DNA from: a bacterium
GTDB taxonomy: Bacteria > CG2-30-53-67 > CG2-30-70-394
Assembly: GCA_024278555.1 (NCBI GenBank)
Contig: JAJRSX010000168.1
Location: 1-33,980, forward strand
Reading direction: 5' to 3'
Length of the DNA: 33,980 nt
Shown here: piece by piece, positions 12,001 through 22,362 of the stretch
Numbering within the stretch: the first letter of the stretch is position 1
Layout of the letters: each line of letters begins with the position of its first letter
Made by a program: the position numbers and the translations under genes
Notes under the pieces: model-generated
Database searches by the model: none
The model's input: the letters and a program-made list of their open reading frames with translations, nothing else
What the model was told of the DNA's origin: nothing

Positions 12001-12035
12001 GGGGAAAACCACCAAGGGCACGAAGGAGAACGGCT

Positions 12036-12100
12036 CAACGCAAAGGCGCGAAGACGCCAGGGCGCAAAGGGACAAGGGGGAAGGCGTCGTCGGTGGTCGG
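12036..12100 (+). repeat. Composite intergenic repeat: CGCAAAGG CGCGAAGA CGCCAGGG CGCAAAGG octamers then GGCGTCGTCGGTGGTCGG box
   Basis: Period-8 register; box matches 17334-17351 (reverse complement) at 17/18 positions. Confidence 0.8.
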
Positions 12101-12266
12101 CCGGGAGGGCGTGCCGAGTGGGGTTACTAACGCAGAGACGCAGAGGGGAGCAAGCAACAGCGGGTCGGGCGTCACCGGTGGGGCGCCGGAGCACAGTGAG
12201 GGCCTGGAAGGCCAGGGCTCGCGACAGAAGCCAAAACGACGGTACTGAAAAATATTGATTCTGTTT

Positions 12267-16121: not shown

Positions 16122-16892
16122 CTAGGGAAGCTCTCGGTCCTCCACGTCGTCGATCTCCACCTCGCGCAGGGTCTTGCGCGAGCGCACCACCCCGACCAGC
16201 CCGGAGGCCGCGTAGCCCCAGGCGAGGGCGAAGAGGGTGATCTCGTGGGCGGCGACTATCACGATGGCTCCGAGGACCAGGGCGAGCAGGACCTTGAAGT
16301 GGTATCGGGAACGGAGGTCGATATCCTTGAAGGAGCGGTAGCGTATGTTACTCACCATCAAGAAGGCCACCCCGTAGGCGACGACCACGAACCAGACGGG
16401 ACGTCCCACGATCTGCGGGTGGCCGAGGAGGAGCTGGACCTGGTGGTAGAAGAGGACGGTGGTGGCCAGCACCGCCGCCGCCGCCGGGCTGGGGAGGCCG
16501 CGGAAGTACCGTTTGTCCCCCTCGTCCACCTGGATGTTGAAGCGGGCCAGACGCAGGGCGGTGCACACCACGTAGAGGAAGGCGGCGAGCCAGCCGATGC
16601 GGTGGAACTGCGACAGCGCCCAGAGGTAGACCAGGAGCCCCGGGGCGAGGCCGAAGGAGGTGAGGTCGGAGAGGGAGTCGTACTGGACGCCGAAGGCGGA
16701 CTGGGAGTGGGTGAGGCGGGCGATCTTGCCGTCGATGCCGTCGAAGACCCCGGCAAGCAGGATGGCGTTCGCCGCCGCCGTGAAGCGGCCGTCGATCGCC
16801 GCCACGATGGCGTAGAAGCCGCAGAACAGCGCCGCGGTAGTGGCGAGGTTGGGGAGGAGGTAGATCCCCCGGATAGAGTTATTGGAGCTCAC
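16122..16892 (-). CDS. pssA: CDP-diacylglycerol--serine O-phosphatidyltransferase
   Basis: CDP-alcohol phosphatidyltransferase motif FDGIDGKIARLTHSQSAFGVQYDSLSD; start proposed at GTG 16892 (VSSNNSIRGIYLLPNLATT). Confidence 0.88.
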   Translation of the reverse strand: MSSNNSIRGIYLLPNLATTAALFCGFYAIVAAIDGRFTAAANAILLAGVFDGIDGKIARLTHSQSAFGVQYDSLSDLTSFGLAPGLLVYLWALSQFHRIGWLAAFLYVVCTALRLARFNIQVDEGDKRYFRGLPSPAAAAVLATTVLFYHQVQLLLGHPQIVGRPVWFVVVAYGVAFLMVSNIRYRSFKDIDLRSRYHFKVLLALVLGAIVIVAAHEITLFALAWGYAASGLVGVVRSRKTLREVEIDDVEDRELP

Positions 16893-16940
16893 TGCGCCGC
16901 TCCGGGACGAAGGCTTCGTTGCACACGACCTGCAACCGCC

Positions 16941-17392
16941 CAACGCAAAGGCGCAAGGGCGCGAAGGCGCGAAGGGGGAGAGGAAAAGGGCGGCACAGGC
17001 GTCACCGGCGGCACGAGGCGGCCACGGCGCGGCCTGGAAGGCGGACTCACCGCAGAGACGCAGAGGGCACAGAGAGCTGCATCGGGAAACCACACGACGG
17101 CGCGCGGGCCCCCTTTATGGTTGCGACCTGGCGATCCATCGTGGGGTCGAGCCTCTGACCAGCCATCTTGGCAAGAGTCCATCTCGATGGTGGACAGACA
17201 AGATCCATCCGGAGAATCGACGGAATCCCTTGGGACCGAAGGCACATGAACAAGCCACCCTTCCATTGCAGTTCTCTGTGCCCTCTGTGTCTCTGTGGTG
17301 AAACCCGGTTTCAGACCTGCCCCATCGCCCCAACCGACCACCGACGACACCCTACTGCCGACCCCGAGACCCCTTGCGTCTTGGCGTTGACG
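16941..17392. repeat. Nested inverted-repeat intergenic element between pssA and ilvN
   Basis: Inner arms 17047-17081 and 17267-17301 (35 nt, 32/35 complementary identity); outer octamer arms 16941-16980 and 17370-17392 inverted. Confidence 0.8.
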
Positions 17393-17436
17393 ACCGGAAC
17401 CGCGGGGACGCGGGCGCTCCCATCGCCAACCGACCC

Positions 17437-17910
17437 CTACGCCCGCTGCAAAGCGACGCTGCCGGTGCGCACGATCTCCTGGATGCCGATGGGGCGCAGG
17501 AGGTCGAGGATCGCCTCGACCTTCTCGGGGCTGCCGGTGACCTCGATGGAGTAGTGACGCGGCGAGGAGTCGATCACCTTGGCGCGGAAGATGTCGACGA
17601 TCCGCAACGCCTCGGCGCGCAGCTCCTGGGGGGCGTGGATCTTGATCAGGGCCATCTCCCGGTCGACGAACTCCTTGTCGTTGAGGTCGACCACCCGGAT
17701 GACGTCGATCTGCTTGTTGAGCTGCTTGGTGATCTGCTCGATGACCCCGTCCTCGCCGCGGGTGACGATGGTCATGTGCGAGACCCCCTTCTCCAGGGTC
17801 TCGGCGACATTGAGGCTCTCGATGTTATAGCCGCGACCGGAAAAGAGCCCCGCCACCCGCGACAGGACACCAAAGCGGTTCTCCACCAGGACAGAGATGG
17901 TGTGGCGCAT
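17437..17910 (-). CDS. ilvN: Acetolactate synthase small subunit
   Basis: MRHTISVLVENRFGVLSRVAGLFSGRGYNIESLNVAETLE ACT domain; ATG 17908-17910. Confidence 0.95.
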   Translation of the reverse strand: MRHTISVLVENRFGVLSRVAGLFSGRGYNIESLNVAETLEKGVSHMTIVTRGEDGVIEQITKQLNKQIDVIRVVDLNDKEFVDREMALIKIHAPQELRAEALRIVDIFRAKVIDSSPRHYSIEVTGSPEKVEAILDLLRPIGIQEIVRTGSVALQRA

Positions 17911-19869: not shown

Positions 19870-19911
19870 GGCGTGGCCTGCGGCCACGCCTGAGGGCGCC
19901 CTGCGGGCGCC
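19870..19911. repeat. Two adjacent perfect TGC-triloop hairpins: GGCGTGGCC-TGC-GGCCACGCC and GGCGCCC-TGC-GGGCGCC
   Basis: Perfect 9-bp and 7-bp stems; imperfect second copy at 21148-21189. Confidence 0.9.
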
Positions 19912-20043
19912 GTTTGACCGGCCACGCTCCCCTCCCCATAATTCCGCCCTTCGCGAATTGGCGACGGCCACGGCACGACCCTCCCGCCGCCCGACCCGCA
20001 CTGGGCCCACAGCCTACGCGCACAACCTGTTAAGGAGTAATCG

Positions 20044-21144
20044 ATGGCACGGATCGATTTTGGCGGCGTCACCGAGGATATTGTCACCCGTGACGAGTTT
20101 CCCCTGGAGAAGGCGCACGAGGTCCTCAAGGACGAGACCATCGCGGTGATCGGCTACGGGGTCCAAGGGCCGGCCCAGGCCCTGAACATGAAGGACAACG
20201 GCTTCAACGTGATCATCGGCCAGGCGAAGCGGTTTACCCACGACTGGGAGCGGGCCCTCGCCGACGGCTGGGTGGAGGGCGAGACCCTGTTTGAGATCGA
20301 CGAGGCGGCGCGCCGCGGCACGGTCATCCAGATGCTCGTCTCGGACGCGGCCCAGCGGACCATCTGGCCGACCATCAAGGCGTGCCTCAACGAGGGCGAC
20401 GCCCTCTACTTCTCCCACGGCTTCTCCATCACCTACAAGGAGCAGACCGGGGTGATCCCGCCGGACAACGTCGACGTGATCCTCGTCGCCCCCAAGGGGT
20501 CGGGGCTCAACGTGCGGCGCAACTTCCTCTCCGGGGCCGGGATCAACTCCAGCTTCGGGGTCGGCCAGGACTACACGGGGCGCGCCCGCGAGCGGGCGAT
20601 CGCCCTGGGGATCGCCATCGGCAGCGGCTTCCTCTTCCCCACCACCTTCGAGATGGAGGTCTACAGCGACCTCACGGGCGAGCGGGGGATCCTCATGGGG
20701 GCCTTGGCCGGGGTGATGGAGGCCCAGTACGACGTCCTGCGCGCCAACGGCCACAGCCCGAGCGAGGCCTTCAACGAGACCGTGGAGGAGCTCACCCGCT
20801 CCTTGATCCGTCTGGTCGACGAGAACGGCATGGACTGGATGTACGCCAACTGCTCCGCCACCGCCCAGCGCGGTGCCCTGGACTGGAAGCCCCGTTTCAA
20901 GGAGGCGACCCTGCCGGTCTTCAAGGATCTCTACCAGCGGGTGAAGGACGGCAGGGAGACCAAGCGCGTCCTGGAAGCGTGCGGCGCCCCCGACTACCAG
21001 GCTCAGCTCGAGCAAGAGCTGGCGGAGATCCGCGACAGCGAGATGTGGCGTGCCGGCCGCGCCACCCGCGACCTGCGCCCCACCGAGCCGGCCCGCACGA
21101 TCGACGCCAACACCAAGGGCGTGGGCGGCCGCGCCTCGAACTAG
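20044..21144 (+). CDS. ilvC: Ketol-acid reductoisomerase
   Basis: VIGYGVQGPAQALNMKDNGFNVIIG; TFEMEVYSDLTGERGILMGALAGVMEAQYDVLRANGHSPSEAFNETVEELTRSL; SD AAGGAG upstream. Confidence 0.95.
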   Translation: MARIDFGGVTEDIVTRDEFPLEKAHEVLKDETIAVIGYGVQGPAQALNMKDNGFNVIIGQAKRFTHDWERALADGWVEGETLFEIDEAARRGTVIQMLVSDAAQRTIWPTIKACLNEGDALYFSHGFSITYKEQTGVIPPDNVDVILVAPKGSGLNVRRNFLSGAGINSSFGVGQDYTGRARERAIALGIAIGSGFLFPTTFEMEVYSDLTGERGILMGALAGVMEAQYDVLRANGHSPSEAFNETVEELTRSLIRLVDENGMDWMYANCSATAQRGALDWKPRFKEATLPVFKDLYQRVKDGRETKRVLEACGAPDYQAQLEQELAEIRDSEMWRAGRATRDLRPTEPARTIDANTKGVGGRASN

Positions 21145-21147
21145 GCA

Positions 21148-21189
21148 GGCGTGGCCTGCGGCCGCGCCAGAAGGCGCCCTGCGGGCACC
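21148..21189. repeat. Second TGC-triloop hairpin pair: GGCGTGGCC-TGC-GGCCGCGCC and GGCGCCC-TGC-GGGCACC
   Basis: Same two-hairpin structure as 19870-19911, starting 3 bp after the ilvC stop. Confidence 0.85.
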
Positions 21190-21205
21190 GAGCCGACGGC
21201 TACCC

Positions 21206-21269
21206 GGGTGCGCCGCACCCGCCACACCCTACAGCCCCGGTGCGCCGCGCTCCGCTTGGCGCACCCTAC
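21206..21269 (-). repeat. Two REP-like GTAG-headed palindromes in tandem
   Basis: - strand GTAGGGTGTGGCGGGTGCGGCGCACCC (21206-21232) and GTAGGGTGCGCCAAGCGGAGCGCGGCGCACC (21239-21269). Confidence 0.75.
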
Positions 21270-21380
21270 GGGCGAGTGACGTAGGCAGGAGGCGGTAGAG
21301 AGGGGCGAGGCGGGACCGGGGGAACCGTGTCGCCGGGGCAGGGCCGGGGCCGGGCGGCAGTGTTGAAGGCCGTTCAGACC

Positions 21381-21833
21381 ACGAAGGCCATGGAAGGGGG
21401 GGCTCAACGCAAAGACGCCAGGGCGCGAAGGCGCAAGGGGGAGGCGCGGCGTCCAACGGGGCACGAGGGGGGGGGCGCGGGTGGGAGCTCAACCCAGAGT
21501 CGCAGAGGGGCGGGAGGCGCAGAGGGGAGGGGTTGGCGGGGGAGAGTGGGCCGGGATCTCGAACGAGCCTTGATGGGGCCACGGCGCTTCGGCCGTATGG
21601 GTCGTCCACGAAGAGACACGAAGGCCGGCCGCTGCGCGGGCCGCTCTTCTGGCAGGTCGCCTTGCGGATCGCGCCGCCGGAGCCTCGGCCTGCCTCCCCC
21701 TTCGTGTAGGCGCGCAGCGCCCTTGGTGTGCCTTCGTGGACAACCTCCCTGCCGGGTGGCGACCGGCTCCAAGAAGATCACCGGCGCCGCCCCGCTCAGG
21801 GCCACCCTGCACGCCCTGGCGTCTTTGCGTTGA
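21381..21833. repeat. Nested inverted-repeat intergenic element
   Basis: Outer arms 21404-21425 / 21812-21833: perfect 22-bp inverted repeat TCAACGCAAAGACGCCAGGGCG; inner arms 21604-21624 / 21721-21741: 18/21. Confidence 0.85.
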
Positions 21834-21896
21834 AACCCCGCCTGCAAAGCGGCCGCCCAACCCCGGTCTCGCCGCCGGCGACACGGAGAGTGAATC

Positions 21897-21927
21897 GGTG
21901 CGCCGCGCTGCGCTTGGCGCACCCTAC
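21897..21927 (-). repeat. REP-like GTAG-headed palindrome (GTAGGGTGCGCCAAGCGCAGCGCGGCGCACC)
   Basis: 30/31 identical to 21239-21269. Confidence 0.8.
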
Positions 21928-21959
21928 AACCATACCCGGCAAGCCCCGAAGGGTGCTGC

Positions 21960-21978
21960 CGGGCCGCGCAGCGGCCCG
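21960..21978 (-). terminator. Hairpin immediately after the rplQ stop (CGGGCCGC-TGC-GCGGCCCG on - strand); possible U-less terminator
   Basis: Perfect 8-bp stem, triloop; no clear U-tract. Confidence 0.5.
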
Positions 21979-22362
21979 TTACTCGGTCGTGGCGTCGGCC
22001 GCGACCGAGGGCTCGACGAACTCGATGATCGCCATGGGGGCGGCGTCGCCGTGGCGGCGGCCGACCTTGAGGATGCGGGTGTAGCCTCCCTGGCGCTCCT
22101 GATAACCGGCAGCCATCTCGTCAAAGAGCTTGTAGACCGAGTCCTTGCGCATGATGTAGGCAAGCGCTCGCCGGCGGCTGGCGAGATCGCCCCGCTTGGC
22201 CAGGGTCATCATGCGATCGGCAATGCAGCGCAGCTCCTTGGCCCGAGCCACTGTGGTGGTAATCCGTCCGTGGTCGATCAGCGAGGTGACCATGTTGCGC
22301 AACATCGCCCGCCTCTGGGAGGAGTTACGGCTCAGCTTGCGATATCCCTTGTTGTGTCTCAT
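21979..22362 (-). CDS. rplQ: 50S ribosomal protein L17
   Basis: [34 protein letters not shown]. Confidence 0.97.

Follow-up and report, generated by a model that had tools for sequence, protein, structure and literature searches.

Nested octamer-armed repeats between ilvC and rplQ as probable non-autonomous members of a GxxExxY nuclease element class

The interval at positions 21376-21846 of the window (the whole 33,980-nucleotide stretch of DNA that was analyzed) is a nested mosaic of dispersed, non-coding repeats in which a shell with family A arms holds family D and family E repeats. The window elements are probably non-autonomous, MITE-like members of a class of mobile elements that combines a GxxExxY nuclease gene with inverted arrays of short octamers. 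The class itself is well supported, both by the orientation of the arrays in this genome and by their position at GxxExxY genes in many phyla.

Layout of the window elements

The element between ilvC and rplQ is bounded by outer arms that include a perfect 22-bp inverted repeat (21404-21425 and 21812-21833), which a preliminary description had reported and which is present as given there. This repeat is far above chance, as exact inverted pairs of at least 16 nt within 600 bp number 7 in the window and 0 in ten first-order Markov copies. The outer arms reach 41 nt at 83% identity (21391-21431 and 21806-21846). The left arm is an array of four units with an 8-bp period (ACGCAAAG ACGCCAGG GCGCGAAG GCGCAAGG), of which the right arm keeps the outer half only. 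The inner pair, described as matching at 18/21 positions, was also recovered and extends to 28 nt at 82%. The earlier list was incomplete in that it lacked the four-unit form of the left arm, the arrays at 21486-21531 and 21376-21398, and a third cluster at 12010-12145. The features of the window are as follows.

21376..21398, plus strand: partial C-type (CACGAAG) array, outermost, CCACGAAG GCCATGGAAG
21399..21440, plus strand: left outer arm, family A, a four-octamer array with an exact 8-bp period
21486..21531, plus strand: family D array (CGCAGAG type), CCCAGAG-TCGCAGAG-GGGCGGGAG-GCGCAGAG
21553..21766, no strand: inner miniature element, family E, ~214 bp, a dispersed repeat
21600..21627, plus strand: left inner arm, CACGAAG type (family E), GTCCACGAAGAGACACGAAGG
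21718..21745, minus strand: right inner arm, family E, in inverted pairing with 21600..21627
21806..21846, minus strand: right outer arm, family A, with the two inner octamers lost and the outer half preserved (22 bp perfect)
16940..16977, plus strand: companion locus, left family A arm
17047..17074, plus strand: companion locus, inner family B arm, of the type that also flanks the GxxExxY genes on contigs C30 and C116
17274..17301, minus strand: companion locus, right inner family B arm (CACAGAG)
17373..17391, minus strand: companion locus, remnant of right family A arm, CCTTGCGTCTTGGCGTTGA
12010..12145, plus strand: third cluster, CACGAAG, A and D arrays in a single orientation

BLAST comparisons indicate how the layers of the mosaic are dispersed. 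A solitary copy of the E element (21553-21766), 82% identical over 216 nt and lacking the outer A arms, occurs at C8:8912-9125, so that E is a repeat independent of the A shell; partial copies are present on C12, C77, C121 and C164. A unit of ~90 nt around the D array at 21486-21531 recurs on C102, C204 and C121, and a search for a right partner of this array found none. Additionally, the partial C-type array and the adjoining A arm were copied jointly on C78, C149, C202 and C152 (79-86% over 64-75 nt). The element as a whole is predicted to form a strong hairpin (DNA z -4.3, RNA z -3.6), and Rfam models gave 0 matches between 16800 and 22100.

The preliminary description attributed the same architecture to the companion locus. 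The outer A arms and the nesting are indeed common to both loci, but the inner element is not, since the inner arms are of the CRCAGAG type (family B) at 17047/17301 and of the CACGAAG type (family E) at 21600/21745. Non-coding B-type copies have a common sequence within their arms (AACTGCATnGGAA). Two further repeats were observed near these elements. A palindromic motif (GCCTGGAAGGC/GCCTTCCAGGC) forms an extra shell beside octamer arms at C29:2930-3440, at C4:10335-10595 and in the window at 17029-17046. Outside the outer arms of the ilvC-rplQ element there are 32-nt direct repeats (97% identical, CGGTGCGCCGCGCTSCGCTTGGCGCACCCTAC) at 21238-21269 and 21896-21927, 658 nt apart, whose unit is itself nearly palindromic and perhaps represents another repeat family.

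Array families, orientation and gene order

The window corresponds to contig C148 of a genome of 3.06 Mb in 211 contigs (G000). Exact-pattern searches alone were genome-wide; array counts cover 267 kb of fetched stretches, and because these stretches were chosen for holding arrays, the array density in them is not a genome average. Exact patterns of three octamer families gave 23, 59 and 42 matches genome-wide against 0, 0 and 4 when reversed, and weight matrices detected ~176 arrays in the 267 kb versus 1 in reversed sequence. Each family has its own fixed unit number and spacing.

Family A: AACGCAAAG plus three further units, spacing 8,8,8; CGCNAAG/CGCAAAG octamers, four per arm
Family B: CACCRCAGAG, three units, spacing 8,9
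Family C: AACCACGAAG, three units, spacing 9,9
Family D: AACGCAGAG, four units, the third degenerate
Family E: GTCCACGAAG..ACACGAAG

Families A and D differ mainly in having CGCAAAG versus CGCAGAG. Searches of 145 genomes for the exact C-type pattern and of 386 genomes for the exact A-type pattern found C in this genome alone and A also in two others, where it forms gene-free hairpins. In 296 kb of a sister species (G001) that is ~85% identical to this genome, 16 arrays were detected, and 13 of these belong to family A.

A real element class had been proposed in the preliminary description, with random octamer orientation and nesting named beforehand as the outcome that would speak against it. 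Orientation in the scanned 267 kb is not random. Neighboring arrays of the same family that are no more than 120 bp apart all converge (13/13), while neighbors of different families share one orientation in 38 of 40 cases, the other 2 being convergent and 0 divergent. This non-random orientation and nesting therefore argues for a real element class, one that is better described as several octamer-armed families nested in one another than as a single doubly armed element. In each family, the best inverted partner of an array is found on its inward side and practically never on its outward side, and many arrays have no detectable partner. There is also an order to the shells, as C is the outer array in 9/9 same-orientation neighbors with A, and A is the outer array in 15/20 with B or D; on contig C29 the shells are nested three or four deep. 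Copying of C and A as a single unit accounts for part of the C-A order, and we infer that shell order reflects insertion order. An identical 179-bp spacing of A arms on C4 and C22 was considered as one element and rejected, as the interiors are unlike.

Comparison with the sister species provides evidence of presence and absence. The orthologous gaps of the sister species lack the blocks of arrays found here on C91 (~490 bp), C124 (~800 bp) and C121, and an A pair on C4 is common to both genomes. The exact insertion joints are unreadable because the empty sites are only ~85% identical. Target-site duplications, for which the preliminary description proposed a check, were not detected in 61 arm pairs, and direct repeats of 3-8 nt outside these arms, at any offset, were in no excess over shuffled pairs.

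Local gene order differs between the two genomes as well. In the sister species ilvC follows ilvH, and ilvB adjoins rplQ. In the genome studied here the native ilvC is gone from behind ilvH, where the companion octamer element now lies (window 16874-17444 versus locus L121), and a distant ilvC (37% identical, as compared to 92% for IlvB) together with the nested element is found between ilvB and rplQ (window 19879-22004 versus L121). In this one case, an octamer element is present both where the native ilvC was lost and where the distant one was gained.

Arrays of other types also enclose genes in this genome. Both of its four-helix-bundle (PF05635) genes lie within inverted short-repeat arrays (L089:1440-1930, GGGGATGG type; L090:1260-1650, GTAGAAAGTAGGAAG type), and a solo CTACTTTCTACTTT array is present in the sister species at the site of the first of these genes (L089). 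The location of PF05635 genes between their own arrays suggests a second, parallel element class.

GxxExxY nuclease genes between octamer arrays

Such repeats commonly flank GxxExxY genes, an association that was tested here. The genome has four GxxExxY (PF13366 PDDEXK_3/TIGR04256) genes, all of which are located between arrays. Those on C30 and C116 lie within inward-facing B-type pairs, a frameshifted gene on C22 lies within an inward-facing D-type pair with four-unit arms, and the gene on C142 lies between two short B-type pairs. The coding unit is ~450 bp in size and consists of one GxxExxY gene and two inverted arrays of 3-4 octamers, which abut the gene ends and sometimes overlap them. 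Three CACGAAG units precede a GxxExxY gene that lies at the end of a contig in the sister species.

Scanning of named genomes yielded a cross-phylum sample of 80 GxxExxY loci, among which 16 phyla are named. Inward-facing octamer arrays are present on both flanks of 53/78 GxxExxY genes versus 2/1045 control placements in the same loci, and outward-facing arrays are rare. Inverted flank matches of at least 12 nt occur at 43/77 loci as compared to 9/77 cross-locus pairings. The octamer is identical in the left and right arms at 45/51 loci, with a mean of 12.7 and a maximum of 24 in 10,000 shuffles. On a nuclease tree built from few columns, and with many weak forks, octamer type requires 28 changes (no fewer than 35 in 500 shuffles and no fewer than 33 in within-phylum shuffles) and the state of the second base requires 9 (at least 15 and, within phyla, at least 14). 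Arm type and nuclease phylogeny could be linked merely by joint inheritance in one unit. In a second set of GxxExxY loci, inward arrays of further types were recognized by eye. Identical GxxExxY loci in one genome (G004; L266 and L271) were considered as a recent transposition and rejected, as identity spans the entire 3,348-bp locus; these twin loci are a long duplication or an assembly artefact. GxxExxY is scarce in viral and plasmid records (5 viral contigs and 8/72,556 plasmids), so that viruses and plasmids are not an obvious vehicle.

The protein itself, of 125 residues, has an intact PD-(D/E)XK site pattern with a QxxxY motif, which is the pattern of RecB, Cas4 and lambda-exonuclease relatives. 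Among 42 aligned members E27 (of GxxExxY), D67, K79, Q91 and Y95 are invariant and E77 is nearly so. A search for solved structures related to GxxExxY by sequence found none. The nearest folds to a structure model (pLDDT 94) are LHK-Exo, MGME1, the Cas4-like SSO0001 and lambda exonuclease, all as weak matches (best E 5.9e-3, TM ~0.5).

The A arms of the window fit the format proposed for this class, namely inverted arrays of 3-4 octamers with a heptamer core and the leading AAC/ACC end outward. It is by format that they are tied to the class, through their resemblance to family D, which brackets the gene on C22, and through CGCAAAG-armed GxxExxY genes elsewhere. The latter, found in other phyla, have three units and not four; four-unit CGCAAAG arms were in each observed case gene-free, and none of the intact GxxExxY genes detected had arms of family A or E. 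A search in all six frames of the ilvC-rplQ and companion elements gave no GxxExxY match, and since no such protein is readable inside them, the window elements are at most non-autonomous derivatives. Additionally, they have the traits of MITEs in being short and non-coding, with terminal inverted repeats and several copies.

Alternative explanations, proposed mechanism and known systems

Other origins for these elements can be considered. GxxExxY may be a passenger, or may be regulated by arrays that serve as sites of its own regulator, with some other enzyme of the host or of an element spreading the arrays. The fact that arrays abut and sometimes overlap gene ends is in line with this explanation, as is the observation that most arrays are gene-free. 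However, inverted and type-matched arrays at both ends are needless for regulation and octamer type tracks the nuclease tree, so we regard this as unlikely. It is also quite unlikely that the elements are classical MITEs, that is, relics of a DDE-transposase insertion sequence that are moved in trans and leave target duplications. Their size, terminal inverted repeats, dispersed non-coding copies and presence or absence between species would all be expected of MITEs, but direct repeats of 3-8 nt are not in excess at the 61 arm pairs, the arms are octamer arrays of fixed number, and arms of such format enclose nuclease genes and not DDE transposases.

REPINs are likewise paired inverted short repeats without target duplication, and the Y1 (HUH) tyrosine transposase (RAYT) that moves REP/REPIN-like sequences could come from Y1_Tnp genes, of which this genome has four and the sister species five. 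This origin is very unlikely. An association of octamer arrays with Y1/RAYT was rejected given a single weak array at nine Y1_Tnp loci; furthermore, inverted ends of other kinds (TGGGGTCAGG or AAAAGGGGACAGGACCC type) bound 3/4 of the Y1_Tnp genes here, in contrast to the GxxExxY genes of this genome, which lie between octamer arrays. Most improbable of all is that these are host-made 3'-end hairpins, acting as bidirectional terminators or mRNA stabilizers between convergent genes, with a coincidental link to GxxExxY. The strong predicted hairpin and an intergenic site at which ilvC and rplQ converge do agree with such a function. This nevertheless leaves unexplained the arrays around nuclease genes in many phyla, as well as the family-specific fixed spacing, nested mosaics, dispersed copies and absence from orthologous gaps. 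A secondary host use of the hairpins is possible. As a separate observation, the Y1_Tnp genes at L315, L317 and L319 are located between inverted repeats of their own (TGGGGTCAGG.. or AAAAGGGGACAGGACCC).

We thus favor membership of the window elements in the GxxExxY/octamer-array class, and infer that movement is brought about by the nuclease, acting on arrays to which it binds, with A, D and E arms served by such nucleases. In the mechanism proposed, an A-armed element with four CGCNAAG octamers per arm would have filled the intergenic gap, with D and ~214-bp E elements coming to lie inside it. A GxxExxY nuclease would recognize the octamer arrays, probably in hairpin or cruciform form, and would cut out or nick the element at its ends or in the arm hairpin. 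Host repair would then complete excision, copying or reinsertion without a target duplication. Gene-free arm pairs may be moved in trans, piling up within earlier copies to give nested shells. More tentatively, and at somewhat less than even probability, this may be a new and nearly pan-bacterial mobile class in which a lone RecB/Cas4-like PD-(D/E)XK nuclease co-evolves with octamer-array termini and has many nested gene-free derivatives, with no transposase, recombinase or target duplication. The GxxExxY/octamer-array class would give function and genomic context to GxxExxY, a widespread uncharacterized small protein of environmental bacteria, and would account for the dispersed octamer repeats of their genomes. 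It makes testable a minimal mobile element composed of a 125-residue nuclease and two octamer arrays, and invasions that followed one another in waves may be recorded in the nested shells.

The octamer-armed element class is apparently undescribed. In a search of the open-access literature, no description of the class or of arrays flanking GxxExxY was found, and among the papers listed for sample octamer strings none contained the sequence. The GxxExxY family (TIGR04256/PF13366 PDDEXK_3) has genes between octamer arrays of the same formats; however, databases describe only the protein family, and the window elements carry no such gene. Several known systems are similar in part. The Chunjie MITE of Geobacter uraniireducens is short and non-coding with inverted terminal repeats and many intergenic copies of variable size, as are the elements described here, but it has direct repeats representing target duplications (PMC10969869), which were not detected here, where the ends are octamer arrays of fixed number in several nested families. 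The REPIN/RAYT system (PMC3116915) is alike in outline, with few nuclease genes, many short paired inverted repeats and no target duplication. RAYT, however, is a Y1 HUH enzyme, whereas the enzyme here is of the PD-(D/E)XK type and Y1 genes are without octamer arrays, bar one weak case. The hupL MITE of Thiomargarita nelsonii is attributed to a PD-(D/E)XK_2 (YhgA-type) element (PMC4853749). It is similarly proposed to derive from a PD-(D/E)XK nuclease element, but this belongs to another nuclease family (PDDEXK_2), and the MITE has a 19-bp inverted repeat and 10-bp direct repeats and is not reported to have octamer arrays. Finally, the intervening sequences of 23S rRNA with S23/four-helix-bundle ORFs (for example in Coxiella, PMC4990558) resemble the coding unit in being selfish units of ~400 bp with one tiny ORF; they encode a different protein, and the four-helix-bundle genes of this genome have different flanking short-repeat arrays.
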